DNA of 64,000 nucleotides from Conexibacter arvalis (GTDB taxonomy: Bacteria; Actinomycetota; Thermoleophilia; Solirubrobacterales; Solirubrobacteraceae). Shown piece after piece: positions 17,191-29,888 of this stretch. Below the pieces are notes generated by a model that was not told where the DNA came from, did no database searches, and saw nothing but the letters and a program-made list of their open reading frames with translations. The stretch spans positions 186,001-250,000 of the forward strand of contig NZ_JACHNU010000007.1 of assembly GCF_014199525.1 (NCBI RefSeq), written 5' to 3'. The stretch's first letter is position 1. Every line of letters begins with the position of its first letter. Position numbers and translations under genes: made by a program.

Positions 17191-17688
17191 TCAGTCGTAG
17201 CGCTTGAGGTCCTCGTCGAGCCGGCGCGCGTCCTCGTCGCTCAGCTCGGGGCCGAGCGCCGTCGGCTCGGCGCCGGCGAAGGCGCGGGCGCGGCGGCGCC
17301 AGCGCGGGAGGAAGATCGCGGCGAGCGCGAGCGCGACGGCCACGACCGCGACCGGGACGACGTAGACGGCGACGTTGAAGCCGTCCTCCTCGGGGAGGGC
17401 GAGCACCGCCTTCCCGTACTCGTCGACGAGCGCGCTCTTGATCTCGTCGGTCGTCATCCCCGCGGCGATCATCCCTCTGATCAGCTCGCGCTGTCTCTCG
17501 GCCTGCGGGCCGCCGGCGACGGCGAGCGAGGTTCTGCAGGTGACGCACATCACCTGGCTCTCGATCTCGTAGAGCGTCGTCTTCGGCGTCGTGTCGGCAC
17601 GCTGGGCGAGCGCGCCGGCCGGCGCGAGCGCGAGGATCGTCAGCAGCGCGGCGAGCAGGGAGCTGGCGATGGCGAGGCGGCGGCTCAT
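17191..17688 (-). CDS. CcmH-type cytochrome c biogenesis protein
   Basis: A 165-residue thiol protein of cytochrome c maturation that handles apocytochrome cysteines outside the membrane. It has a signal peptide (residues 1-28), the CxxC pair in VMCVTCRTSLA (Cys48/Cys51; canonical proteins have LRCxVC), the helical motif RELIRGMIAAGMTTDEIKSALVDEYG, then a membrane helix (~112-132) and a basic cytoplasmic tail. ATG 17688 overlaps the stop of the TlpA gene (ATGA). Together they look like the reductive arm of heme ligation. Confidence 0.88.
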   Translation of the reverse strand: MSRRLAIASSLLAALLTILALAPAGALAQRADTTPKTTLYEIESQVMCVTCRTSLAVAGGPQAERQRELIRGMIAAGMTTDEIKSALVDEYGKAVLALPEEDGFNVAVYVVPVAVVAVALALAAIFLPRWRRRARAFAGAEPTALGPELSDEDARRLDEDLKRYD

Positions 17689-18233
17689 TGCTGCTCGGCG
17701 AGGAGCGGGGCGAGATGGTCGTCGACCCATCTCTGCGTGATCTGCTGGCGCTGGAGGGCGGTGATCCGGCCCTGCTCGTCGATCACGAACGTCTCGGGCA
17801 GGCCCTTGACCTCGAACGACTTCGAGAACGATCTGTCCACGTCGCGCAGGACGGGGAACCTGACGCCGTGGTCGTCGACGAACCGCTGCGTGTCGCCTCT
17901 GGCGTCATCGACGGCGACCCCGATCACCGTGCCGCCCCTGGCCTCCAGCTGGCGCTGGACTCTGTTGAGCAGCGGCGCCTCCTCCTCGCACGGCGGGCAC
18001 CAGGAGGCGAAGAAGTTGACGACGACGACTCTGCCTCTGTGGTTGGCGAGCGCGTCGGTGCCGCCGCCGTCGAGCCGGTTGAGCGTGACGCTCTGCGCCG
18101 CGGGCTTCTCGCCGCGCGCGATCGCCTGGTCGAGCGACGAGTCGTCCGTCGTCTGCAGCACGCCGAAGATCAGCAGGGCGACGAGCGCGACCGCGAGGGC
18201 GGCGACGAGACCAGGGACGGCGATGCGGCGCAT
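17685..18233 (-). CDS. TlpA/CcmG-like membrane-anchored thioredoxin
   Basis: A 182-residue thiol-disulfide oxidoreductase with an N-terminal anchor (VPGLVAALAVALVALLIFGVL) and an exported thioredoxin domain with VVNFFASWCPPCEEEAP (Cys79/Cys82) and the cis-proline region KGLPETFVID. It probably reduces CcmH or apocytochrome c. ATG 18233 is chosen because GGAGG sits eight bases upstream; a TTG four codons earlier lacks a site. Arginines in the exported domain are often AGA (HRGRV, LNR, DARG), unusual for this genome. Confidence 0.9.
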   Translation of the reverse strand: MRRIAVPGLVAALAVALVALLIFGVLQTTDDSSLDQAIARGEKPAAQSVTLNRLDGGGTDALANHRGRVVVVNFFASWCPPCEEEAPLLNRVQRQLEARGGTVIGVAVDDARGDTQRFVDDHGVRFPVLRDVDRSFSKSFEVKGLPETFVIDEQGRITALQRQQITQRWVDDHLAPLLAEQQ

Positions 18234-18892: not shown

Positions 18893-18965
18893 GCGGACGT
18901 AGCTCAGTTGGTAGAGCGTCGGCTTCCCAAGCCGAAGGTCGCGGGTTCGAGGCCCGTCGTCCGCT
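18893..18965 (+). tRNA. tRNA-Gly (anticodon CCC)
   Basis: A complete cloverleaf: acceptor GCGGACG (18893-18899) pairs with CGTCCGC (18958-18964), D-arm GCTC/GAGC, anticodon stem TCGGC/GCCGA with loop TTCCCAA (anticodon CCC at 18926-18928), T-arm with GGTTCGA, discriminator T. CCA is not encoded. It reads GGG. It borders the lower-GC accessory patch; tRNA-Gly genes are common integration sites. Confidence 0.96.
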
Positions 18966-19106: not shown

Positions 19107-22100
19107 GTGGCAGATATTGATCTGACATCTCCTTGGCCGGGCTTGCCGATATCGCGCCTTCTGCGATCGCCGAGCGTCGTGCCGCTGCTCGGCGCCGGCA
19201 TGAGCGTGGAGGCAGGTCTTCCTTTGGGCAAGGAACTCGCCGCTTGGATTCGCTGCCACGAGCTTGCCCGCGGGCTCGACTTCTCGTTACTCGGTGCCGC
19301 TTCGGAGGATCCGACCGCCGTCCTTGATGTCGTCGATGACCACCGCGCCGAGTCGGTCCCCGCCATCCTGGACGATCTGCGGGCCTGGCTGGCGAGTCTG
19401 TGCAGACAAGCCGAGGTGCCGGAGCCCCTCCGTCACCTGGCACATGTCCCCGGACGGCTTGTGCTGACGCTGAACTACGACGACCTGCTGGAGCGCGCGG
19501 CTGAGGAGGAAGGGCGACCCGTGCGCAGCGTGACCCGTGAGCAGCTGCCGCGCCTGATTGGGGCTGGAGCGCCGCTCGCCGAGGACCCCCTGCACGTTGT
19601 CCACCTTCATGGCTCTGTTCGATCTCCGGAACGGTTCGTGCTCGATGGAATCAGCTACGCGAAGGTCTCAGCTGACGAGGACCTTGCAGTGCTGTTCGGC
19701 GGACTCGCGTTTCAGCGACGGAGCGTCTGCATCCTTGGAACTCCTCTGGCCGAGCTGCACTTGGCAAGCCTGTTCCGGCGTTATCGCGGACCGCAGCGCC
19801 ACGTGATCGTGTGCGAGGAGCAAGAGGCCGAGCAGATTCGAAACAACAGCGCGCCTTCGCTTCTGCGCCAGATCGACGGGATCGTTCCTTGCAGCTTTCC
19901 CGTAGGTCGTTTCGGAGTGCTGGCGCCTTTCTGTGCAGAGCTTGTGGAACAGGGCCGGCAAGCGGAGTCGGAGACGGCGCAGGCAACGCGACCAGTTGCG
20001 CCGCCGGTGGATCGACTCTACGTCGCCCGGAAGCTGTTGCCGCTCGGGGACTCGGAGGACCCTCGAATCGACCTCGCTCTCGGACGCATCTCAGTGGTGG
20101 ACGAAGATGAAGTGGCGGCAGCCTCGCGGGCCTTGATCATCGACTCGCCGGGCGCAGGTAAGACGGAGTTGCTCCGACGGTATGCGGCGCGATCTGGCAC
20201 CGATGAGGACACCGTGTACGTGCGCCTTCGCGGCGTCCGAGCGCTCACCGGCTCGACGGAAGCTCTCCTGACCGAGTGGCTGAACGCCGCCGACAGGGAA
20301 TTCGGACTGGTGGAGCCGAGCGCCGTTGTGTCCGGGGCGGCCGCGGTGCATTTGCTGCTCGACGCGTTGGACGAACAGCCTCCGAGCGTGCGCCGAGCGG
20401 CCGCTCTCGCGATCGACCGGGTCGCCAGAGCGTTCCCGAACGTGCGGATCACCGTTACGAGCCGTCCTACGAGCGCGCTGGACGCCTTCGGCGGGGAATG
20501 GCTGCGTTTCAAGCTCGTCTTCGACGACGAATGGGCTCAGACGTTCTTCAGCAGGGCCGGCCGTGACCGAGCAGCGTTCGACGCCGTTATGGCGTCAGCG
20601 CGCTCGACCGTCGCGCCGCTGCTCTCGAGCCCCTTCTTCCTTCGACGGCTTGCCGACATGCCAGAGCCAGAGCTCAAAGTGGCTGTGGCGAGGAACAACG
20701 CGCTCGACCTCGTGCTCTCGCTCCTCGACAAAACCATTGTGGAAGACCCGAACCTCGCGAACGTCTCTACCGCGGTTGCTGCATGGATGACCGATGTGGC
20801 GCTGCTCATGCAGCTGGGCGGGCGGCGGACGATGCCACGGCAGGCACTGGAGCGGATCACCAGACGCTTCGATCTCGGCGAGGTCTCGGTGCTCACCGAT
20901 CAACTCGTGGGACGCGCGCTCCTTGAGGAGAGCTCGGACGAGTGGTCCTTCGGGCACCGCCTGTTTGCGGACGCACTTGTCGCCCAGAGCCTCGTTGACA
21001 GAATGCCGAGCGATTGGCTCGACATCATCGCTCCGGTAGTCCATAGCCGCTCGGCTGTCCGCGAGGACTGGGATGCCGCGATCGCGTTCCTTTGCAGTGC
21101 CTCGGCAGACTGGCGAGCAGCGATTGCGCCGCGCGATCCTGCCGTGTCGGCGCGGACGACACCTGTGGAGGCGGACCAGTCTGAGCGACGAGCGGCGGTA
21201 CAGACACTGTGGAGTCGCGCGCACGAGCGCCAGATCTGGCTGAACGAGCGTGACAACGCCCCCGATGATGCTGAGATTGTGGCCAAACTCGTGGGCGCCG
21301 GCGGGCTCGACGACGAACGTGGCGCAATACACGCGGCCTTCCACTCCAGCAGTCGCTACGACCGGCTCAACGCGCTCGACGTTCTCGTCCGCATCGCGCC
21401 GTCGGAGCGGATCGAGCTGATCTCGCATGTGCTGCGGGACGAGACGGACTCGACCTTGCGCCGCAACGGTGCAGCTTGGGCCGAACGCTTTGGCCTGACG
21501 GAACTCGCGGACCTGGTCATCGCTCGCGCCTCGGCGCCAGCGGACGAGTCGGAAGAGGCCGACATGACGTCGATCGGCTTGCGCCTGACGGCGAAGGCGG
21601 ACCGGCTTGCCGTCGGTCGCGAACTGCTCGCGCGCGGCAACACGCATATTCGCGACTACCTGATCTTCGAGGATCTGCCTGCAATCGAACACGTTCGGTG
21701 GATCCGCGACATCCGGACAATGCGAGAAGACCACACGATCTATGGCGACAGAGAGAAGCTGCTCGAACTGCTGGAATCGCTTCGAGACCTCTCCGAGGAC
21801 GACGTGCTGCTCGTTGCGGAGGCGCTGGCTCTGACCCACGCATCCGCGCCGGAGGCCGTCACGTGGATCGGTAGTCATAGGTCTGTGGCCGCTCGAGCAC
21901 TGGTCGAGGTGCTCGTCGGCGGGCACCGATGGATATCGATTCGCGAACTGCTCGTAGCAGCCGGGAGCGAGGCGCTCGAACAAGCGGGATGCAGCGAAGA
22001 AGCGCTCAGCTGGGTTCGCCGGCAGGAGGCATCTCTACCGACTCGAGGACGTCGCGTCACTCCGCCGAATTGGGGCGAGCCGGTAGCCGACGCTCCAACC

Positions 22101-23087
22101 CTCGCAGACGTCCTGGAGATGGATGATCCTGAGCGAATGGAGGTGCTCGTCGATCAGAGTCAGCGTCTCACGAGAGAACTCTCCAAGACCTCGCCGGCAG
22201 TACGTCGCCAGCTTGACGCAGCGATTGAGGAGCTGTGGGGACGACACGACATCCGTGACGCAGTTGTCGTCAATGACAGCGGCGCTTCCATATCGTTCTG
22301 GGCCAGCGTCGTCCTGACGTATGGGCACGCGCTGGAGCTCCAACTGACAGCGGAGCGCTGGGTCCAAGTTGCGTCGTGCGGGTGGCTGCTTCGCACGCAG
22401 ATCGGCTGGCTCGCAACGCAGGCGGATCAGGGCCGGTTCGACACCGCAGTCGACGGAGCGACCACCGCGCGGACGTTCGCAGATCTGTTCGCGATCGCGG
22501 CCGAGGCCGACGTCGATGCTGATCATCTCGTGGCGCGTGCGTCAGATGTCGCAAGCCTCGACGGGATTGAGGGTACGCGGCTCCTGCAGGCGTTGGCTGA
22601 CGCTCGAAGACCCGAGGCACTTCGGACGCTCCAAGCGAGGTTCCCTGATCGAGTGGATGAGGTGACTCCGCTGCTGGCAGCGGCCGGCGACATCGCCGCG
22701 CAGCGAGCGGCCTTGCGGGCGTTGATCGCTCGCTTCGAAAGAGGGGAGCAAGTCGATTCGCATGATGCGCTCTGGTTGGAAGCCGTCCGAGATCCCAGCC
22801 TGGTCGATGTCCTTACCGAGACGGTGATCGCGGGCCATCAGCGGGTCGCGCGGAACCATCCCTTCGATGCCGAGGCTACGGCGCTCGCGGCGCTCGAGCG
22901 CATTGGCGGTGGCGAAGCACTCGACTCGCTCGACCAGATCGTCGAGACCCGGCCATGGCCTGGCGCGCAGTGGCTCTATCACAACCGCGACCGTGTCCTG
23001 CAGCGAGAATTGACCGCGGCGGCAGCTGCGCCGGCGACTGATCGGCTTCACAGACTCGATCTCGCTACGGCGACGACAGACCGCTGA
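19107..23087 (+). CDS. SIR2-NACHT (STAND) protein, probable anti-phage NADase
   Basis: A single 1326-residue protein. Residues ~20-250 are a SIR2-like domain: VVPLLGAGMSVEAGLP (NAD loop), LTLNYDDLLERA (catalytic-type Asn123), VVHLHGSV (His168) and CILGTPLAELHLASLF. Residues ~320-560 are a NACHT-type NTPase: P-loop DSPGAGKT (346-353), Walker B LLLDALDE (Asp419), then VRITVTSRP. The remaining ~760 residues are helical and HEAT/TPR-like, the usual position of a sensor. SIR2 fused to a STAND NTPase is the architecture of bacterial NLR-like defence proteins (Avs/bNACHT), which deplete NAD when a phage component is recognised. Both catalytic SIR2 residues are present. GTG 19107 is the first start in the frame. 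GC and codon use (more TTG, GCT, CGA) are clearly foreign to the neighbours. Confidence 0.85.
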   Translation: MADIDLTSPWPGLPISRLLRSPSVVPLLGAGMSVEAGLPLGKELAAWIRCHELARGLDFSLLGAASEDPTAVLDVVDDHRAESVPAILDDLRAWLASLCRQAEVPEPLRHLAHVPGRLVLTLNYDDLLERAAEEEGRPVRSVTREQLPRLIGAGAPLAEDPLHVVHLHGSVRSPERFVLDGISYAKVSADEDLAVLFGGLAFQRRSVCILGTPLAELHLASLFRRYRGPQRHVIVCEEQEAEQIRNNSAPSLLRQIDGIVPCSFPVGRFGVLAPFCAELVEQGRQAESETAQATRPVAPPVDRLYVARKLLPLGDSEDPRIDLALGRISVVDEDEVAAASRALIIDSPGAGKTELLRRYAARSGTDEDTVYVRLRGVRALTGSTEALLTEWLNAADREFGLVEPSAVVSGAAAVHLLLDALDEQPPSVRRAAALAIDRVARAFPNVRITVTSRPTSALDAFGGEWLRFKLVFDDEWAQTFFSRAGRDRAAFDAVMASARSTVAPLLSSPFFLRRLADMPEPELKVAVARNNALDLVLSLLDKTIVEDPNLANVSTAVAAWMTDVALLMQLGGRRTMPRQALERITRRFDLGEVSVLTDQLVGRALLEESSDEWSFGHRLFADALVAQSLVDRMPSDWLDIIAPVVHSRSAVREDWDAAIAFLCSASADWRAAIAPRDPAVSARTTPVEADQSERRAAVQTLWSRAHERQIWLNERDNAPDDAEIVAKLVGAGGLDDERGAIHAAFHSSSRYDRLNALDVLVRIAPSERIELISHVLRDETDSTLRRNGAAWAERFGLTELADLVIARASAPADESEEADMTSIGLRLTAKADRLAVGRELLARGNTHIRDYLIFEDLPAIEHVRWIRDIRTMREDHTIYGDREKLLELLESLRDLSEDDVLLVAEALALTHASAPEAVTWIGSHRSVAARALVEVLVGGHRWISIRELLVAAGSEALEQAGCSEEALSWVRRQEASLPTRGRRVTPPNWGEPVADAPTLADVLEMDDPERMEVLVDQSQRLTRELSKTSPAVRRQLDAAIEELWGRHDIRDAVVVNDSGASISFWASVVLTYGHALELQLTAERWVQVASCGWLLRTQIGWLATQADQGRFDTAVDGATTARTFADLFAIAAEADVDADHLVARASDVASLDGIEGTRLLQALADARRPEALRTLQARFPDRVDEVTPLLAAAGDIAAQRAALRALIARFERGEQVDSHDALWLEAVRDPSLVDVLTETVIAGHQRVARNHPFDAEATALAALERIGGGEALDSLDQIVETRPWPGAQWLYHNRDRVLQRELTAAAAAPATDRLHRLDLATATTDR

Positions 23088-23625: not shown

Positions 23626-23847
23626 ATGGCACGCCGACCGACGACGCTCTATTTGGACGACGAGATCCTGCAGGCGGCTCAGGTCGTCGCTTCGCGGAGC
23701 CAGCGTGACGAGTCGCAGGTCGTCGAGGACGCGCTGCGGAGCTATCTCGGGCTGGACGTCGTAGAAGAGGTCTGGCGGACCAGCGACCTGAGCGAAGCTG
23801 AGGCGCTGGCGCTGGCCGACGAAGAGAAGCACGCCGCGCGCGAGTAG
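23626..23847 (+). CDS. Ribbon-helix-helix antitoxin
   Basis: A 73-residue protein: TTLYLDDEILQAAQVVASRS, QRDESQVVEDALRSYLGL is the Arc/CopG ribbon-helix-helix pattern, with an acidic C-terminal tail (SEAEALALADEEKHAARE) suited to neutralise a toxin. Its stop codon shares one base with the start of the PIN toxin gene, the standard antitoxin-toxin arrangement with autorepression. Confidence 0.85.
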   Translation: MARRPTTLYLDDEILQAAQVVASRSQRDESQVVEDALRSYLGLDVVEEVWRTSDLSEAEALALADEEKHAARE

Positions 23848-24284
23848 TGGCGCGCGTCGTCGTCGATCCCAACGTTCTCGTCGCGGCGCTGATCTCGCCG
23901 CGAGGCGCGCCCGCGGCGCTGTACGGCGCGCTCGCCGGCGGCCGGTTCGAGCTGATCGCCTCACCGCAGCTGCTCGCCGAGCTCGAGCGCGTGCTCTCGC
24001 GGGGGAAGTTCCGCCGCTACGCGTCGCTCGACCAGGTGCACCGCTACGTGCGCGCGATTGCGCGGCTCGCGATCCTCGTCGAGGACCCGCCGGCGCTGCC
24101 GGGCGTGACCGCGGACCCGGCTGACGACTACCTCGTGGCGCTCGCGCGCGCCGAGCGAGCCGACGCGATCGTCTCGGGCGACAAGCACCTGCTCGAACTC
24201 GAACGACCGAGGCCGCCAGTCGTCACGGCGCGAGCGTTCGTAAATGAGACCGTCGCGGTCGACGCGGCCTCCGGCGGCGAATAG
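23847..24284 (+). CDS. PIN-domain toxin (VapC-like ribonuclease, COG1569 type)
   Basis: A 145-residue PIN-fold RNase. The acidic Mg-binding residues are visible: Asp in VVVDPNVLVAAL (residue ~7), Glu in LLAELERVLSR (~47), and Asp residues in TADPADDYLVALA and AIVSGDKHLL. GTG 23847 overlaps the antitoxin stop TAG by one base. Free toxin would cleave RNA and arrest growth. Likely an accessory stabilisation or phage-response element beside the SIR2-NACHT gene. Confidence 0.85.
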   Translation: MARVVVDPNVLVAALISPRGAPAALYGALAGGRFELIASPQLLAELERVLSRGKFRRYASLDQVHRYVRAIARLAILVEDPPALPGVTADPADDYLVALARAERADAIVSGDKHLLELERPRPPVVTARAFVNETVAVDAASGGE

Positions 24285-24583: not shown

Positions 24584-24979
24584 TCACTCGTCGAGCAGCC
24601 TGCGCAGCTCGGCGCGGCGTGCGTCGTCGAGCCGCTCGACCTGCTCGGCGAAGTGCGCGAGCGCGACGTCGCCGTAGGCGTCGAGCAGGCGGTCGACGTC
24701 ACCGGATGCGCGCCCGCGCATCCAGGTGTCGCGCTCGACCGCCGCGGCGTAGACGTCGCGGCGGCCCTCACGCTCGCGCGTGACGAAGCCCTTCTCCTCG
24801 AGCCGCCCAAGGACGGTCAGCACGGTGGTGTACGCGCGCTCGCGCTCGGCGGTCGCGTTGATCCCGTCGAGGATCTCGCGCACCGGCGCCGGGCCAGCAC
24901 GCCACACCTGTTCCATGATCTCGCGCTCCAGCTCGTGGAGCGGCGGCGGGGGCTGGTTTCGTCGCGCTCGCTTCGCCAT
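24584..24979 (-). CDS. BlaI/MecI/CopY-family repressor
   Basis: A 131-residue dimeric winged-helix repressor: LHELEREIMEQVWRAGPAPVREILDGIN, recognition helix YTTVLTVLGRLEEKGFVTRE, and a C-terminal dimerisation helix (VDRLLDAYGDVALAHFAEQ). BlaI proteins are inactivated by proteolysis signalled by an M56 membrane protease (BlaR); one is encoded at 27265. Its start lies four bases from an operator-like inverted repeat, and the same repeat recurs at four more promoters in the next 3.3 kb, so it probably represses this cluster and itself. Confidence 0.9.
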   Translation of the reverse strand: MAKRARRNQPPPPLHELEREIMEQVWRAGPAPVREILDGINATAERERAYTTVLTVLGRLEEKGFVTREREGRRDVYAAAVERDTWMRGRASGDVDRLLDAYGDVALAHFAEQVERLDDARRAELRRLLDE

Positions 24980-24982
24980 CTT

Positions 24983-25000
24983 CTACGCGTATAGTAGACC
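24983..25000. promoter_or_regulatory. BlaI operator A / divergent promoters of blaI and the CPVC membrane gene
   Basis: TCTAC (24982-24986) and GTAGA (24994-24998) are inverted. Rightward, TATAGT (24990-24995) is a fair -10 whose start point would fall at or next to the ATG at 25002, predicting a leaderless mRNA. Leftward, TACTAT overlaps the same bases and serves blaI. Confidence 0.55.
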
Positions 25001-25001
25001 G

Positions 25002-25469
25002 ATGCCCGCTGTTGTCGTCGTGGCGTCGCGAGCGCTCGCCGCCTGGTCACCCCGTCGTTGGCTCGCGGCTGCCCTGGCCGCGACGCTCGTCCTCCTCGCC
25101 CTGGCCGTGCCGACCGCGCTGATCGCCACGCCGTGGTTCGGGCGTGAGATCCCGCCGACGTGGTGGGCGTGGCCGGTGGCCGTGGCGACGGCGGCGATGT
25201 CCGGGCTGCTGCTGGCGACCTACGTCGACGTCGATCGCCGGATCGCTACTGCCGGTGTAGATGCCAAGCGCGCTGGGGTCGGCGGGCTGCTGTCGTTCTT
25301 CGCGGTGGGCTGCCCGGTCTGCAACAAGCTCGTGCTGGCCGCACTCGGCACCACCGGCGCACTGAACTGGTTCGCGCCGGTGCAGCCGCTGCTGGCGGTG
25401 GCCGCGTTGGCGCTCGTCTCGTGGGCGCTCGCGCGGCGACTCGCCGGCGAGGTGCGCTGCCGCCTCTGA
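25002..25469 (+). CDS. Membrane protein with conserved CPVC motif
   Basis: A 155-residue integral membrane protein with about four helices (LAAALAATLVLLALAVPTAL; WAWPVAVATAAMSGLLLATYV; LSFFAVGCPVCNKLVLAALG; LLAVAALALVSWALA). The cysteine pair GCPVC (Cys104/Cys107) lies at the start of the third helix, a placement suitable for thiol exchange with a redox partner. It is divergent from blaI across operator A and near DsbA, TlpA and CcdA genes, so an electron-relay or disulfide-handling role is inferred. No named family recognised. Confidence 0.7.
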   Translation: MPAVVVVASRALAAWSPRRWLAAALAATLVLLALAVPTALIATPWFGREIPPTWWAWPVAVATAAMSGLLLATYVDVDRRIATAGVDAKRAGVGGLLSFFAVGCPVCNKLVLAALGTTGALNWFAPVQPLLAVAALALVSWALARRLAGEVRCRL

Positions 25470-25474
25470 CCTAT

Positions 25475-25492
25475 CTACTACGCATGTAGGAG
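25475..25492 (+). promoter_or_regulatory. BlaI operator B upstream of the riboswitch and NlpC/P60 gene
   Basis: CTACTAC (25475-25481), four bases, GTAGGAG (25486-25492). It is the same element as operators C and E. It lies just before the c-di-AMP riboswitch, so initiation would be under BlaI control and elongation under riboswitch control. Confidence 0.6.
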
Positions 25493-25495
25493 AAG

Positions 25496-25650
25496 TGCTA
25501 CGGTTCGCGTGCCGAATCGCGACGCCGCATGGAAGGCGCGCGAGCGGGGGAACCGCCGGACCGCCTTGAGCGGTCCCGGGGCGAATTGCCGCGATCCGCG
25601 GCATAGCGCGATGGCGCGAGCCCGTCAGCTCACCTCGCAGGCGTACATGA
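25496..25650 (+). promoter_or_regulatory. c-di-AMP riboswitch (ydaO/yuaA class)
   Basis: The ~150-nt leader of the NlpC/P60 gene contains the ordered conserved blocks of this class: GCCGAATC near 25511, GCGGGGGAACCGCC near 25544, CGGGGCGAATT near 25577, GCGCGATGGCGCGAG near 25606 and CCCGTCAGCTCACCTCGCAG at 25621-25640. This riboswitch typically switches off peptidoglycan hydrolase and osmolyte genes when c-di-AMP is high, and in actinobacteria it often precedes NlpC/P60 or Rpf genes, as here. Confidence 0.88.
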
Positions 25651-25674
25651 CGTTCGAGTCAGAGGAGTCTCTCG

Positions 25675-26451
25675 ATGGTCCCTGAGAGCCCATCCATGCC
25701 GTTGCGCCGCGTCGCGCTGGTCGCCGGCATCGCCGCCGTGGCGCTCGCCCCGAACGCGCAGGCCGCGGGGCAGCGTCTCGTCGGCGGCGCGACGCCGAGT
25801 GTGGACGCACCTGCCGCGACCGGCGAGGGCGGCGATACGGCGGTCCCCGTGACGCGACTGCGGGGCGTCGTCTCCGGTCGCGCCGAGGTGCGCGAGCTGC
25901 AGCGCGCGCTGGGAGTCCGCGCCGACGGCCGCATCGGACCCAAGACCCGCGCGGCGCTGCGGCGCGCACAGCGCAAGGCCGGATTGCGGGCCGACGGCGT
26001 GCCGCGCCGTGCGACGCTCGCCAAGCTCGGGATCGTGACTCGCACCGTCCCGTCGGCGAGCGGGACGACGGCCGCGCCGGCCATCGGCGAGGAGCCGCCG
26101 CTCGTCACGGCCGCCCGCAGCCGCATCGGCAGCCCGTACGAATGGGGCTCCACCGGGCCCGACACGTTCGACTGCTCCGGCCTCGTGACCTGGTCGGCCG
26201 CGCAGAGCGGCATCGACGTCCCCCGCGTCAGCTTCGACCAGTACAAGGTCGGCCGACCGGTCGCTCGCAACAGGATTCAGGCGGGCGACCTCGTCTTCTT
26301 CGACACCGCCGGACCGGGCGCCTCCGACGTCGGGATCGCGACCGGCCCGCGGACCGTCATCTCGGCCACGACCAGTCGCGGCGTGGTCGAGCACGCGACC
26401 TTCGACCGCTACTGGGGCTCGCACTTCGTCGGCGCCCGCCGGCTCGGCTGA
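25675..26451 (+). CDS. Exported NlpC/P60 protein with peptidoglycan-binding domain
   Basis: A 258-residue secreted protein: signal peptide (~1-30, ending NAQAAG), a PG_binding_1 domain (~65-120; VRELQRALGVRADGRIGPKT), and an NlpC/P60 domain (~140-258) with the nucleophile in DTFDCSGLVTW (Cys167). Family members cleave peptide stems in the cell wall. The catalytic histidine, expected before VGI, is Asp218 here (ASDVGIATG), and the later HA is SA, so activity may be altered or lost. ATG 25675 follows GGAG at 25663. Controlled by operator B and a c-di-AMP riboswitch. Confidence 0.87.
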   Translation: MVPESPSMPLRRVALVAGIAAVALAPNAQAAGQRLVGGATPSVDAPAATGEGGDTAVPVTRLRGVVSGRAEVRELQRALGVRADGRIGPKTRAALRRAQRKAGLRADGVPRRATLAKLGIVTRTVPSASGTTAAPAIGEEPPLVTAARSRIGSPYEWGSTGPDTFDCSGLVTWSAAQSGIDVPRVSFDQYKVGRPVARNRIQAGDLVFFDTAGPGASDVGIATGPRTVISATTSRGVVEHATFDRYWGSHFVGARRLG

Positions 26452-26483
26452 GGGTCAACCGGCGCGCGCATGGGACGGGCGGC

Positions 26484-27065
26484 TCATCTCGGCGACCGGT
26501 CGAGCGGTCGCCCGACCGCGTGCTGCTCGATCGCCTCGAGCAGCTTCTCCTGTGTCGGGTAGGCGCCCTGCATGACGAAGATGCGGCGGCCGGTCGCATC
26601 GTAGAAGGCGGTCGTCGGCCACGAGCGCCCGCCGCCGATCGCCCGTGCCGCGTCGGCGTCGCGGTCGTAGACGTGGGCGAACGGCGTCGGCTGCGACCGC
26701 AGGAACGACGCGGCCGCGCCGACGCCGTCGCGCGCGTTGACGCCGAGGAACGCGACCCTGCCCTCCAGGTGCTTCGCGAGCCGGCGCAGGAACGGGAACT
26801 CGTAGCGGCAGGGCGGGCACCACGACGCCCACTGGTTGACGACGACCGGCAGTCCGCGCAGCGTCTTCAGCCGCCGCTTCAGCTCATCCTCGCCGCCGTC
26901 GACGAGGCGGCCCGCATGCTCGCTCGCGGCGGCGCGGGCCGCCGCGAGCTCGGCCGGCGACGCGGTGGAGGGTGAGGGCGAAGGGGTCTCGCCGCATGCC
27001 GCGAGCGTGAGCGCGGTCGCCGCGGAGACGGCGGCACAGGCGAGGCGAGGAGAGGAGATCGTCAT
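26484..27065 (-). CDS. TlpA-like thioredoxin lipoprotein
   Basis: A 193-residue lipoprotein (lipobox LAAC, Cys24) with a thioredoxin domain: VVVNQWASWCPPCRYEFPFL (Cys83/Cys86) and the cis-Pro loop GGRSWPTTAFYD. It probably reduces or isomerises extracytoplasmic disulfides, fed by the CcdA protein encoded at 29058. It reads left from operator C, whose minus strand carries TAGATT as a -10 about 12 bases from the ATG, so the mRNA has almost no leader. Confidence 0.9.
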   Translation of the reverse strand: MTISSPRLACAAVSAATALTLAACGETPSPSPSTASPAELAAARAAASEHAGRLVDGGEDELKRRLKTLRGLPVVVNQWASWCPPCRYEFPFLRRLAKHLEGRVAFLGVNARDGVGAAASFLRSQPTPFAHVYDRDADAARAIGGGRSWPTTAFYDATGRRIFVMQGAYPTQEKLLEAIEQHAVGRPLDRSPR

Positions 27066-27077
27066 GACGGCCCGAAT

Positions 27078-27095
27078 CTACTACGCTTGTAGGAG
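27078..27095. promoter_or_regulatory. BlaI operator C, divergent between the TlpA lipoprotein and a 43-residue membrane protein
   Basis: CTACTAC (27078-27084), GCTT, GTAGGAG (27089-27095). The rightward ATG at 27096 begins at the very next base, and the leftward ATG at 27065 is 12 bases away. Both mRNAs would start at or near their start codons, so one bound repressor would silence both. Confidence 0.6.
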
Positions 27096-27227
27096 ATGTC
27101 GGTTCTGAACCCCACTCGGCCTCGTCGACGCGACCGCGGCGCCTGGCTGCTCGATGCGGTCGCCGGTCTGGTCGGGGCGCTGCTGGCGCTCGTCGCGCTC
27201 GTGCTGATCGTGCAGTGGTGCTGCTGA
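27096..27227 (+). CDS. 43-residue single-pass membrane protein ending in a Cys-Cys pair
   Basis: ATG 27096 opens 43 codons to a TGA at 27225-27227. The product has a basic N-terminus (NPTRPRRRDRG), one long hydrophobic helix (residues ~17-40, AVAGLVGALLALVALVLIV) and the terminus QWCC. With the positive-inside rule the two cysteines would face outside, where the DsbA/TlpA/CcdA proteins of the cluster act. Evidence that it is real: its own BlaI operator ends at the base before the ATG, it fills the gap between two regulon members, and its composition is a clean membrane segment. No homologue recalled; function unknown. Confidence 0.65.
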   Translation: MSVLNPTRPRRRDRGAWLLDAVAGLVGALLALVALVLIVQWCC

Positions 27228-27246
27228 CCGCGCCGCTCCCGCGGAT

Positions 27247-27264
27247 CGACTATACGTGTAGGAG
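27247..27264 (+). promoter_or_regulatory. BlaI operator D / promoter of the M56 protease gene
   Basis: CGACTAT (27247-27253), ACGT, GTAGGAG (27258-27264), the most diverged left half of the five. TATACG (27251-27256) is a good -10; the start point would coincide with the ATG at 27265, again predicting a leaderless transcript. Confidence 0.5.
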
Positions 27265-28179
27265 ATGGCAGTCAAACGGTCGACACGTCCCGTCGCCGAC
27301 GGCCACCTGATCGTTCGCCTCCAGTGGGCGATCGCCGCTGCCGGCGGCGGCGCGTTCGTGCTCGCGGCCCTCGCGCCGCTGCTGCCGGCCTACTCGCAGC
27401 TGACGGCGCCGAACGAACTGCTCCACGCCTGCAGACGGCTGGCCGGCCACCCGAGCGCCACTCGGCTGCTGATGGTCGCCGCCACGACGATCGCCATGCT
27501 GGCCGTGATTCGGGGCGGAGCCGCACTGATGGCGACGCTGCGCGCGACCTGTCGGACGCGCGCGCTTCGTGGCGGCGCCGCGACGCTCCACGGCCTGCCC
27601 GTGACGATCGTGCCGACCGCCCGGGTCGTCGCCTTCACCGCCGGCTGGCTGCGGCCGCGCGTCTTCGTCTCCGAGGGCGCCATCGGCTGTCTCGCCCCCG
27701 CGCAGCTGGCGGCCGTGCTCGCGCACGAGGAGCACCATCGAGCGCGCCGGGACCCGCTGCGGCTGGCGCTGCGGCGGGTGCTCGCCGACGCGCTCTTCTT
27801 CGTCCCGCGGGTGCGCGACCTGCGCCGCCGCCACGACGACCTCGCCGAGATCGCCGCCGACTCGGCTGCCGCCCGTTCCGCGGGCGGCGACGTGCGACCC
27901 CTGGCCGGCGCGCTGCTCGCTTTCGACGGAGCTGCGCCCGCCGGCGCAGGGATCTCGCCGGCGCGTGTCGACCGCCTCCTCTCCTCGATGTCGCTCCCGC
28001 TCCCGCGGCTGAGCGACCTGTTCGCGTCTGCCGTCGTCGCCGCCGCGCTGCTGGCGTTGGCGCTCGTGGTGGCGGTCGGTCCGGGCGCCTCGGAGCCTGC
28101 GCTGCGCCCCTGTGCGGCGCTGCTCGCCGCGACCGCGGTCGCGGCGTGGGTCGGCTGGCGCGTACCGCGGCGCGGCTGA
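27265..28179 (+). CDS. BlaR1/MecR1-like M56 membrane metalloprotease
   Basis: A 304-residue zinc protease with about three or four membrane helices (VRLQWAIAAAGGGAFVLAAL; LLMVAATTIAMLAVI; FASAVVAAALLALALVVAV; CAALLAATAVAAWVGW). The active site is LAHEEHHRARRDPL (His154, Glu155, His158) with a downstream acidic ligand region DDLAEIAADSAA. BlaR relatives are cleaved on signal and trigger loss of BlaI; this one lacks a large external penicillin-binding domain, so the signal is not a bound beta-lactam in the usual manner. Likely de-repressor of the cluster. Confidence 0.88.
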   Translation: MAVKRSTRPVADGHLIVRLQWAIAAAGGGAFVLAALAPLLPAYSQLTAPNELLHACRRLAGHPSATRLLMVAATTIAMLAVIRGGAALMATLRATCRTRALRGGAATLHGLPVTIVPTARVVAFTAGWLRPRVFVSEGAIGCLAPAQLAAVLAHEEHHRARRDPLRLALRRVLADALFFVPRVRDLRRRHDDLAEIAADSAAARSAGGDVRPLAGALLAFDGAAPAGAGISPARVDRLLSSMSLPLPRLSDLFASAVVAAALLALALVVAVGPGASEPALRPCAALLAATAVAAWVGWRVPRRG

Positions 28180-28226
28180 GGCGCACCGCACCGATGCGCA
28201 GCGGCGTGGGTTGCCTGTTCACAGAA

Positions 28227-28245
28227 CTACTACGGACGTAGGAGA
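28227..28245 (+). promoter_or_regulatory. BlaI operator E / promoter of the dsbA-ccdA unit
   Basis: CTACTAC (28227-28233), GGAC, GTAGGAG (28238-28244), ending four bases before the ATG at 28249. The GGAG may double as a ribosome site here because the ATG is slightly further away than in C and D. Confidence 0.6.
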
Positions 28246-28248
28246 AGC

Positions 28249-29046
28249 ATGTCGAGGAAGCCCGCCCCCAGATCCGATGACCGCTCCGAGCGCGACGCCG
28301 CCGCGGCCGGTCTCGCCGATCGGCGCTCGATCGCGCTGGTGGCCGTGGTCGCGGCGATCGTCGTCGTGCTCGGGATCGTCGCGCTCACCCGCGACACCGG
28401 CGACGACGCGGCTGTCGTCGGGGCCGGTCAGACCGCGACCGACACCGCCGACGACAGCTCGACGGCCAGTGCCGCATACGGCCCGGTCACCGGCACCGAG
28501 CGGCGCATCGACGGCGACCCGCTCGCGCTCGGCAGGGTCGACGCGCCGGTGGTGATGGTCGAGTACGCCGACTACCGCTGCCCCTTCTGCGCCAAGTTCG
28601 CCACCGACACCCTGCCGGAGCTGACGAGACGCTACGTCGACACGGGCCTGCTGCGGATCGAGTGGCGCGACTTCCCGATCTTCGGCGAGGACTCCGAGCG
28701 GGCCTCGCGGGCCGGCCGCGCCGCGGCGGCGCAGGGGCGCTTCTGGCCGTTCTACAGGGAGCTGTTCGGTGCCGCGCCGCCATCCGGGCATCCGCCGATG
28801 CCGCTCGAGAAGCTCGAACGGCTCGCCCGCAGAGCCGGCGTGAAGGACCTCGCGCGCTTCCGTCGCGACGTCGCCGCAGACGAGACGCATGGCGCCGTCG
28901 AGAGCGACCTCGAACACGGACTGGCGCTCGGCGTCAACAGCACGCCCGCGTTCGTCATCAACGGCTTCCCGCTGCTCGGCGCCCAGCCGCTGGAGGCGTT
29001 CGTCGAGGTCATCGAACAGGCTCGCGGCGGCGCGCCCGGCAACTGA
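28249..29046 (+). CDS. DsbA-family membrane-anchored thiol oxidoreductase
   Basis: A 265-residue protein: cytoplasmic basic N-terminus, one membrane helix (IALVAVVAAIVVVLGIVAL), a Thr/Asp-rich linker and a thioredoxin_4/DsbA domain with YADYRCPFCAKF (Cys111/Cys114), the helical insertion, and the cis-Pro loop NSTPAFVING. Similar actinobacterial proteins oxidise or shuffle disulfides of exported proteins. Eleven bases separate its stop from the ccdA start; they form one unit under operator E. Confidence 0.93.
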   Translation: MSRKPAPRSDDRSERDAAAAGLADRRSIALVAVVAAIVVVLGIVALTRDTGDDAAVVGAGQTATDTADDSSTASAAYGPVTGTERRIDGDPLALGRVDAPVVMVEYADYRCPFCAKFATDTLPELTRRYVDTGLLRIEWRDFPIFGEDSERASRAGRAAAAQGRFWPFYRELFGAAPPSGHPPMPLEKLERLARRAGVKDLARFRRDVAADETHGAVESDLEHGLALGVNSTPAFVINGFPLLGAQPLEAFVEVIEQARGGAPGN

Positions 29047-29057
29047 ACGCGGCGCGG

Positions 29058-29888
29058 ATGCCTGCGGAGATCGGCTACGTCGGCGCCTTCCTCGGCGGAC
29101 TGCTCGCACTCGTCAGCCCCTGCTCGGCGATGCTGCTGCCCGCCTTCTTCGCCTACGCCTTCGAGCGCCCGGCGAAGCTGCTCGCGACGACCGGCGTCTT
29201 CTACCTCGGCCTGGCCGCGACGCTCGTCCCGATGGGCGCCGCCGCCTCGACCGTCGGCGCCGCGCTGACGACCCACCGCGACACCGTCGTGACGATCGGA
29301 GGCGCGACGCTGATCGCCTTCGGCGCAATGCAGATCGCCGGCATCGGCTTCGGCTCCCGACTCGCCCAACGCACCGCCGGCCGCCTCAGCCCGCAATCGG
29401 CGCTCTCGGTGCTGGCGCTCGGAGCCGTCTACGGACTCGCGGGCTTCTGCGCGGGCCCCATCCTCGGCAGCGTTCTCGCCGTCGCCGCGATCGGCGGCGA
29501 CCCGGTCTACGGCGGCGCGCTCCTGCTCGCCTACGCGCTCGGCATGGTCGTCCCGCTCGCCCTGCTCGCCCTGCTCTGGGACCGGCTGCAGCTCGGCCGG
29601 CGCCGCTGGCTGCGCGGCCGCGTGCTGCGGCTCGGCCCGCTGCGCACGCACACGACCTCGCTCGTCTCCGGCACCCTGTTCATCGGCATCGGGCTGCTCT
29701 TCCTGCTCACCGACGGCACCGGCACCATCGCCGGTCCCGTCGGCGTCGACGCCCAATTCGACGCACAGGTGTGGGCCCAGCGCGCCGGCGAACGCGCCGG
29801 CGACCTCACCGTCGTCGCGATCCTCGGCGCGCTTTTGCTCGCCGCGCTCGGGTTGAAGCGACTGCGACGAGCAAGACGAACCGACTGA
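29058..29888 (+). CDS. CcdA-like transmembrane electron carrier
   Basis: A 276-residue protein with about six helices. The first carries LALVSPCSAMLLPAFFAYAF and the fourth GLAGFCAGPILGSVLA, the paired cysteines of the CcdA/DsbD core that pass electrons from cytoplasmic thioredoxin across the membrane. It probably drives the DsbA, TlpA-lipoprotein and perhaps CPVC and CC proteins of the cluster. A C-terminal soluble segment and an extra helix near residue 250 extend the family core. Confidence 0.92.
   Translation: MPAEIGYVGAFLGGLLALVSPCSAMLLPAFFAYAFERPAKLLATTGVFYLGLAATLVPMGAAASTVGAALTTHRDTVVTIGGATLIAFGAMQIAGIGFGSRLAQRTAGRLSPQSALSVLALGAVYGLAGFCAGPILGSVLAVAAIGGDPVYGGALLLAYALGMVVPLALLALLWDRLQLGRRRWLRGRVLRLGPLRTHTTSLVSGTLFIGIGLLFLLTDGTGTIAGPVGVDAQFDAQVWAQRAGERAGDLTVVAILGALLLAALGLKRLRRARRTD

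Follow-up and report, generated by a model that had tools for sequence, protein, structure and literature searches.

A likely BlaI–M56 regulon over an envelope thiol-redox gene cluster in Conexibacter arvalis

What does a BlaI-type repressor govern when its gene stands among genes for disulfide carriers and a cell wall hydrolase? The question is raised by a 64,000-nucleotide stretch of the Conexibacter arvalis genome (contig NZ_JACHNU010000007.1, positions 186,001 to 250,000; hereafter the window), in which an earlier note had proposed that BlaI controls a compact regulon of envelope thiol-redox genes. The cluster occupies positions 24584-29888 of the window, which has ~73% G+C and belongs to a single 5.2-Mb genome. 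From sequence comparison, we consider it likely that the cluster forms a self-contained BlaI–M56 regulon, because its operators are unique in the genome, the genome holds one clear blaI gene, and operators of the same type lie at the blaI, M56, tlpA, and dsbA genes of relatives. The same three lines of evidence support the earlier proposal.

Five operators and the genes beside them

The operator consensus is an 18-bp dyad, CTACTAY-N4-GTAGRAG, with a 4-bp spacer at all five sites. Operator 1 (24980-24997, − strand, CTACTAT-ACGC-GTAGAAG) lies in the gap between blaI and the divergent CPVC gene, abutting the blaI ATG (0 nt) and 4 nt from the CPVC ATG. Operator 2 (25475-25492, + strand, CTACTAC-GCAT-GTAGGAG) is 7 nt upstream of a riboswitch, and operator 3 (27078-27095, + strand, CTACTAC-GCTT-GTAGGAG) separates the divergent tlpA and p43 genes, at 12 nt from tlpA and 0 nt from p43. 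Operator 4 (27247-27264, + strand, CGACTAT-ACGT-GTAGGAG) directly adjoins the M56 gene (0 nt), and operator 5 (28227-28244, + strand, CTACTAC-GGAC-GTAGGAG) is 4 nt upstream of dsbA. Four of the five are thus 0-4 nt from a start codon, three of them abutting the ATG (blaI, p43, and M56), while operator 2 precedes the riboswitch and the NlpC/P60 gene. These distances, 0-12 nt overall, agree with the earlier claim that each transcription unit of the cluster begins with an operator. The exact copies at 25475, 27078, and 28227 are where they had been placed, as is the diverged copy at 27247 (2 mismatches); the other diverged copy, previously put at 24983, is real but spans 24980-24997 and is best read on the − strand, also with 2 mismatches.

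No other exact copy of CTACTAC-N4-GTAGGAG occurs in the genome. With up to three mismatches the window contains 10 matches, where 0.89 are expected and 100 shuffles gave at most 4, but several of the 10 count a single site once per strand, and the match at 25246, inside the CPVC coding sequence, is probably a chance one. Allowing at most one mismatch, the pattern TACTA-N6-TAGKA has exactly five genome-wide matches, all of them within 24980-28244, and TACTANNNNNNTAGKA matches the same five places only, whereas a reversed control pattern has 57 matches; this scoring used a single consensus and thresholds fixed after the window sites had been seen. All five sites genome-wide therefore lie within 3.3 kb, no transcription unit of the cluster is without one, and the concern that the motif might be just as frequent elsewhere is not borne out. 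The form of the dyad with a 5-bp spacer gave only scattered, imperfect chance matches in this genome.

Family searches upheld the gene calls made earlier (BlaI, NlpC/P60, TlpA-like, M48/M56-like protease, DsbA, CcdA, and the riboswitch). The blaI gene (24584-24979, − strand) encodes a 131-residue winged-helix repressor whose Penicillinase_R domain (PF03965) scores 89.8 bits against a cut-off of 22.6. It is the sole clear BlaI gene in the genome, two further matches being marginal (26.5 and 23.5 bits), and the nearest solved structure to its product is M. tuberculosis BlaI (2g9w). The membrane metalloprotease encoded at 27265-28179 (+ strand) has only M48/M56 domain matches in its 304 residues (PF01435, 30.7 bits), which confirms that it lacks the penicillin-binding sensor domain of BlaR1 and MecR1. 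It carries a zinc motif, HEEHH with the downstream Glu195, and is 31-35% identical to mycobacterial Rv1845c orthologues, with H154, E155, H158, and E195 invariant in the alignment.

The remaining products are mostly thiol proteins. CPVC (25002-25469, + strand) is a 155-residue membrane protein with a GCPVCNK motif, from a family with no Pfam model; it gave no match in Pfam or NCBIfam, and its structure model (predicted local distance difference test score, pLDDT, 60.3) was too poor for a fold search. The GCPxCNKL segment is near-invariant in an alignment of 26 members. Across the family (loci L062-L077 and L207-L219 in addition to the window), the proteins are ~155-residue membrane proteins with a P.QP motif and a C-terminal cysteine, and the relatives on plasmids are labelled 'hypothetical protein' and adjoin DsbA-CcdA or BlaI-M56. 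Beyond the riboswitch lies a gene for a secreted wall hydrolase with PG_binding_1 and NlpC/P60 domains (25675-26451, + strand). The tlpA gene (26484-27065, − strand) encodes a TlpA-like thioredoxin lipoprotein (Redoxin/AhpC-TSA match), with a LAAC lipobox and a WCPPC motif read from the sequence. The putatively coding p43 (27096-27227, + strand) is a 43-residue, single-span open reading frame that ends in WCC and likewise has no Pfam or NCBIfam match. The last unit consists of dsbA (28249-29046, + strand), for a membrane-anchored DsbA-like thioredoxin with a CPFC motif (PF13462, 98 bits), and ccdA (29058-29888, + strand), for a CcdA/DsbD-TM electron carrier (PF02683, 54 bits). A CcmH gene and a CcmG/TlpA-like redoxin gene at 17194-18233 form a cytochrome c maturation cluster 6-8 kb away that has no operator.

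Spacer length, riboswitch coupling, and origin of the cassette

Relatives were represented by 40 loci from the same order, each surrounding a BlaI homologue (44-55% identity), with gene calls from a simple script and some genomes in draft form. In a scan of the family, the exact 4-bp operator turned up in the window genome and otherwise at a single chance-like site in G077, which prompted a comparison of spacer lengths. Dyads of CTACTAC and GTAGTAG scoring at least 12/14 numbered 77 with a 5-bp spacer and 4 with a 4-bp spacer, against ~0 in shuffles, and they adjoin blaI, M56, tlpA, and dsbA genes, with a good share sitting right at a start codon. A scan of relatives for the 4-bp spacer alone returned almost nothing, and its suggestion that the operator is not conserved is misleading: the half-sites are kept in relatives and the 4-bp spacer is not. 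G031, from the same genus, has two perfect 5-bp sites, one adjoining a CtaG gene and the other a dsbA gene. A more distant, CPVC-linked type of BlaI is associated with CTCCTAC-N5-GTAGGAG (33 sites with this spacer versus 1), and mycobacterial blaI genes have TACGAC-N5-GTAGTA ~60 nt upstream at 77 of 80 loci. The window sites thus share the TACTAC-like half-site of the mycobacterial and order operators but not their 5-bp spacer. In two genomes of one genus a DUF2867 NAD(P)-binding protein is encoded at BlaI-type operators (L082:13421-14914 and L083:7644-9149).

Sites with a 4-bp spacer also occur near a BlaI group of another genus, g23 (G132, G133, G134, G135, and G137). The window BlaI and this group have KGF following the recognition helix; the corresponding residues are KGL in most proteins associated with 5-bp sites, and protein and spacer may co-vary. 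A first tree placed the window BlaI with one 4-bp locus (support 98/80) and a larger tree did not recover that grouping, although a single clade of 4-bp BlaI proteins was not rejected (p = 0.51).

The riboswitch behind operator 2 is a full-length ydaO/yuaA aptamer for cyclic di-AMP (c-di-AMP; 25500-25657, + strand), which scores 56.9 bits with the RF00379 covariance model against a gathering cut-off of 38. The genome has eight RF00379 riboswitches above the cut-off, and the other seven have no operator. In five relatives from three genera (G113, G014, G139, G140, and G141) an operator again lies upstream of a c-di-AMP riboswitch, a few kb from blaI. Among 90 riboswitches in 14 genomes, six are preceded, at no more than 120 nt, by a dyad with a 5-bp spacer scoring at least 11/14, and spacers of 3, 4, 6, or 7 gave no such dyad; two of the six, one of which is in G105 from a further genus, reach no more than 11/14 and do not adjoin a blaI of this type. 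Where they could be read, the genes downstream of the relatives' operator–riboswitch pairs encode secreted M23 or NlpC-like hydrolases. On an Arthrobacter plasmid, a c-di-AMP riboswitch and a LysM protein gene are followed by DsbA-CcdA-CPVC genes, without BlaI (L208:5069-6084), an arrangement that suggests that wall-hydrolase and redox genes travel together.

The genes of the cluster appear to differ in origin. The dsbA, ccdA, and CPVC products are 45-62% identical to products of genes grouped on plasmids of Pseudonocardia, Arthrobacter, and Streptomyces (dsbA 45-55%, ccdA 52-62%), and a ccdA of this type is found in only one of 231 other genomes of the order at E <= 1e-20, at 36% identity. 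BlaI is mostly 44-55% identical to the order's own homologues, compared with 36-45% for the plasmid forms, and the M56 protease mostly 34-56%, compared with 34-38%. Because BlaI and M56 are nearer to the order while dsbA, ccdA, and CPVC match plasmids and ccdA is rare in the order, a home-type regulator has probably taken over an acquired redox cassette. Base composition gives no sign of recent foreign origin (cluster 73.7% versus window 73.1% G+C). A Pseudonocardia plasmid carries a BlaI-M56-DsbA-CcdA-CPVC gene set, and M. gilvum pMSPYR101 has the other half of the window set, with NlpC/P60 RipA, CPVC, TlpA, BlaI, and M56 close together. In these plasmid cassettes (Pseudonocardia, Arthrobacter, Streptomyces, and Mycolicibacterium, with genes annotated as hypothetical, DsbA, or CcdA), BlaI and M56 are adjacent in some cases and the genes stand in a row, whereas the window has five scattered operators with a 4-bp spacer.

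Upstream of the cluster, a tRNA (18893-18965) is followed by a gene for a 1326-residue protein (19107-23084, 65% versus 73% G+C) with a SIR2-like domain and an apparent P-loop (SPGAGKTELL), which looks like a SIR2-type anti-phage defence gene. Between it and blaI, a small open reading frame and a PIN_3 protein gene (23626-24281) form a probable toxin–antitoxin pair. Together, and beside the tRNA, the SIR2 gene and the PIN_3 pair may constitute an island.

Proposed mechanism and inducing signal

In the model that we favor, BlaI dimers would bind the five dyads, which overlap the promoters of blaI/CPVC, riboswitch-nlpC, tlpA/p43, M56, and dsbA-ccdA, and hold all of the units down together. A signal in the envelope would activate the membrane M56 protease, which would inactivate BlaI directly or indirectly and derepress the whole cluster at once, with feedback through blaI and the protease gene themselves. 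Together the products would make up a thiol relay outside the cytoplasm, in which CcdA carries electrons outward to DsbA and TlpA, probably assisted by CPVC and p43, while the mRNA for the wall hydrolase would be gated a second time by c-di-AMP. BlaI binding, repression, proteolysis, leaderless starts, the direction of electron flow, and the signal are all points that we infer from sequence. Because BlaI has no cysteine, direct sensing of thiols or of copper and other metals through a CopY-type motif is unlikely. Leaderless mRNAs would fit the geometry of the sites, since three operators abut an ATG.

Several observations weigh against this model. The −10 elements are only loosely recognizable, with TACGCT at p43 fitting and the others not, and the 4-bp spacer departs from that of most relatives. 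A simple CTAC/GTAG scan of plasmid loci L207 and L211-L215 found no such operator at blaI, and for this reason the gene set appears to be more widely kept than the operator. The protease scores 20.2 bits with the M56 model PF05569, below the curated cut-off of 31, so that its assignment relies on homology to Rv1845c and linkage to blaI; its structure model (mean pLDDT 59.7) was too poor for a fold search, and PDB sequence searches with it and with CPVC returned no useful match.

The earlier note had suggested thiol or wall stress as the signal. Copper or metal stress seems at least as good a guess, because metal genes adjoin the operators of relatives and surround the plasmid homologues. It is possible, though we would stop short of even chances, that the same regulon answers to copper or a similar thiophilic metal, with a Scs-like system repairing the wrong disulfides that the metal makes outside the membrane. 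Genes for CtaG, SCO1/SenC, a cation-diffusion transporter, and a P-type ATPase adjoin relatives' operators, as do genes for Met-rich small membrane proteins that start with a CPxGMGxMMWxM span (L122:9499-9720, L124:9376-9591, and L123:10185-10397). Behind one BlaI-type operator is a gene for a secreted Met/His-rich protein with repeated MRDPQMREMHRQH motifs (L114:6589-6870, − strand), suggestive of copper binding. Around the plasmid homologues lie genes for multicopper oxidases, CopC/CopD, and heavy-metal ATPases, and Salmonella scsBCD mutants are copper-sensitive (PMC3672137). However, no metal gene was found under operator control in the window or among the tested neighbors, metal islands are found on plasmids anyway, and the genes linked to operators in relatives include several with general envelope roles (Lgt, SecY, FtsH, PAP2, and M23). 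Separately, a short protein of the CPxGMGxMMWxM type is encoded beside tlpA on a Mycolicibacterium plasmid (L219:13502-13675).

An equally tentative alternative is that the regulon responds to wall damage of the beta-lactam kind, as with M. tuberculosis BlaI-BlaR, and that the thiol proteins only refold wall enzymes. The protease resembles Rv1845c, which also has no penicillin-binding domain, wall hydrolases are recurrent targets or neighbors of the operators, and blaI and blaR of M. tuberculosis respond to beta-lactam (PMC5473688), but no gene for a beta-lactamase or a penicillin-binding protein (PBP) adjoins any of the five sites, and redox genes make up the majority of targets.

Two readings that dispense with BlaI as the reader of these sites fare far worse. 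A regulator other than BlaI is most improbable: the spacer is unlike that of most BlaI operators in the order, but dyads of the same type lie at the blaI gene of this genome and at those of relatives and mycobacteria, and the g23 BlaI group has the same 4-bp spacer. We give as little credence to the repeats being a shared core promoter or Shine-Dalgarno block (GGAG). In every copy the right arm does finish with GGAG or GAAG on the side of one start codon, and at dsbA it is at Shine-Dalgarno distance. Yet a dyad found only five times in a 5.2-Mb genome is no general promoter, at three genes the GGAG or GAAG directly adjoins the ATG, which leaves too little room for a ribosome to bind, and symmetric dyads stand beside blaI across relatives.

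Returning to the BlaI–M56 regulon, a more elaborate version of it is speculative and, in our view, rather doubtful in its entirety. In this version, a BlaI class with an operator shorter by 1 bp would control a horizontally acquired thiol-redox cassette; BlaI would be stacked on a c-di-AMP riboswitch, as in several other genera of the order, so that making the wall hydrolase would require both clearance of BlaI through the protease signal and a low c-di-AMP level; and the PBP-less protease would sense extracytoplasmic redox or copper stress.

Comparison with known systems

Control of disulfide carriers and a riboswitch-gated wall hydrolase from copies of one BlaI-type operator appears to recur in relatives and is undescribed in the literature that we searched, where we found nothing on BlaI with thioredoxin or M56, or on the BlaI family with disulfide or copper. 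CPVC, recognized by GCPxCNK, represents a family of thiol membrane proteins that has no name but a clear genetic context. With the whole regulon in 5.3 kb and five near-identical operators, a small piece of DNA would suffice for studying which signal acts, how the protease step works, and how the operators are read.

CopY, the copper repressor, is in the same Pfam family as the window BlaI and shares the TACANNTGTA core, but has C-terminal Cys-X-Cys metal motifs (PMC7253601), whereas the window BlaI has no cysteine, hence no Cys-X-Cys, and scores 43.5 bits with TIGR02698 against a cut-off of 122. The ScsBCD system resembles the window, by analogy, in combining a DsbD-type carrier with periplasmic thioredoxin-fold proteins in one cluster (PMC3672137, PMC8900818), while the window has a CcdA-size carrier, BlaI–M56 control, CPVC, and a wall hydrolase. 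Control of wall hydrolases by a c-di-AMP riboswitch is known in Streptomyces, and the ydaO/yuaA riboswitches of actinobacterial hydrolase genes such as rpfA likewise place RF00379 upstream of a secreted hydrolase (PMC10117811). The window differs in having a BlaI-type operator directly upstream of the riboswitch, which would give two layers of control. Neither a link between BlaI and c-di-AMP nor BlaI at a riboswitch promoter was reported in the titles and abstract openings searched, and the recurrent operator–riboswitch pair would join two modes of wall control that are discussed there only apart.

The BlaI-BlaR1 and MecI-MecR1 systems of S. aureus have the same BlaI fold and TAC-N4-GTA core spacing (TACA/TGTA; PMC7253601), but differ from the window in their penicillin-binding sensor, their half-sites, and their beta-lactamase or PBP2a targets (PMC5473688). 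The closer parallel is BlaI (Rv1846c)-BlaR (Rv1845c) of M. tuberculosis, which shares the winged-helix BlaI, a PBP-less protease homologue, and the half-sites TAC[GT]AC and GTAGTA. Since this system likewise has no PBP sensor and has targets other than beta-lactamase (PMC5473688), the contrast that the earlier note drew with known BlaI/BlaR systems was overstated. How a PBP-less BlaI-BlaR pair detects its signal is an open question in M. tuberculosis as well (PMC5473688). The targets there include blaC and ATP synthase (PMC5473688, PMC12565901), compared with a thiol relay and riboswitch-nlpC in the window, and the spacer is 5 bp there and 4 bp here, a natural pair for asking what sets the spacing of a BlaI operator.

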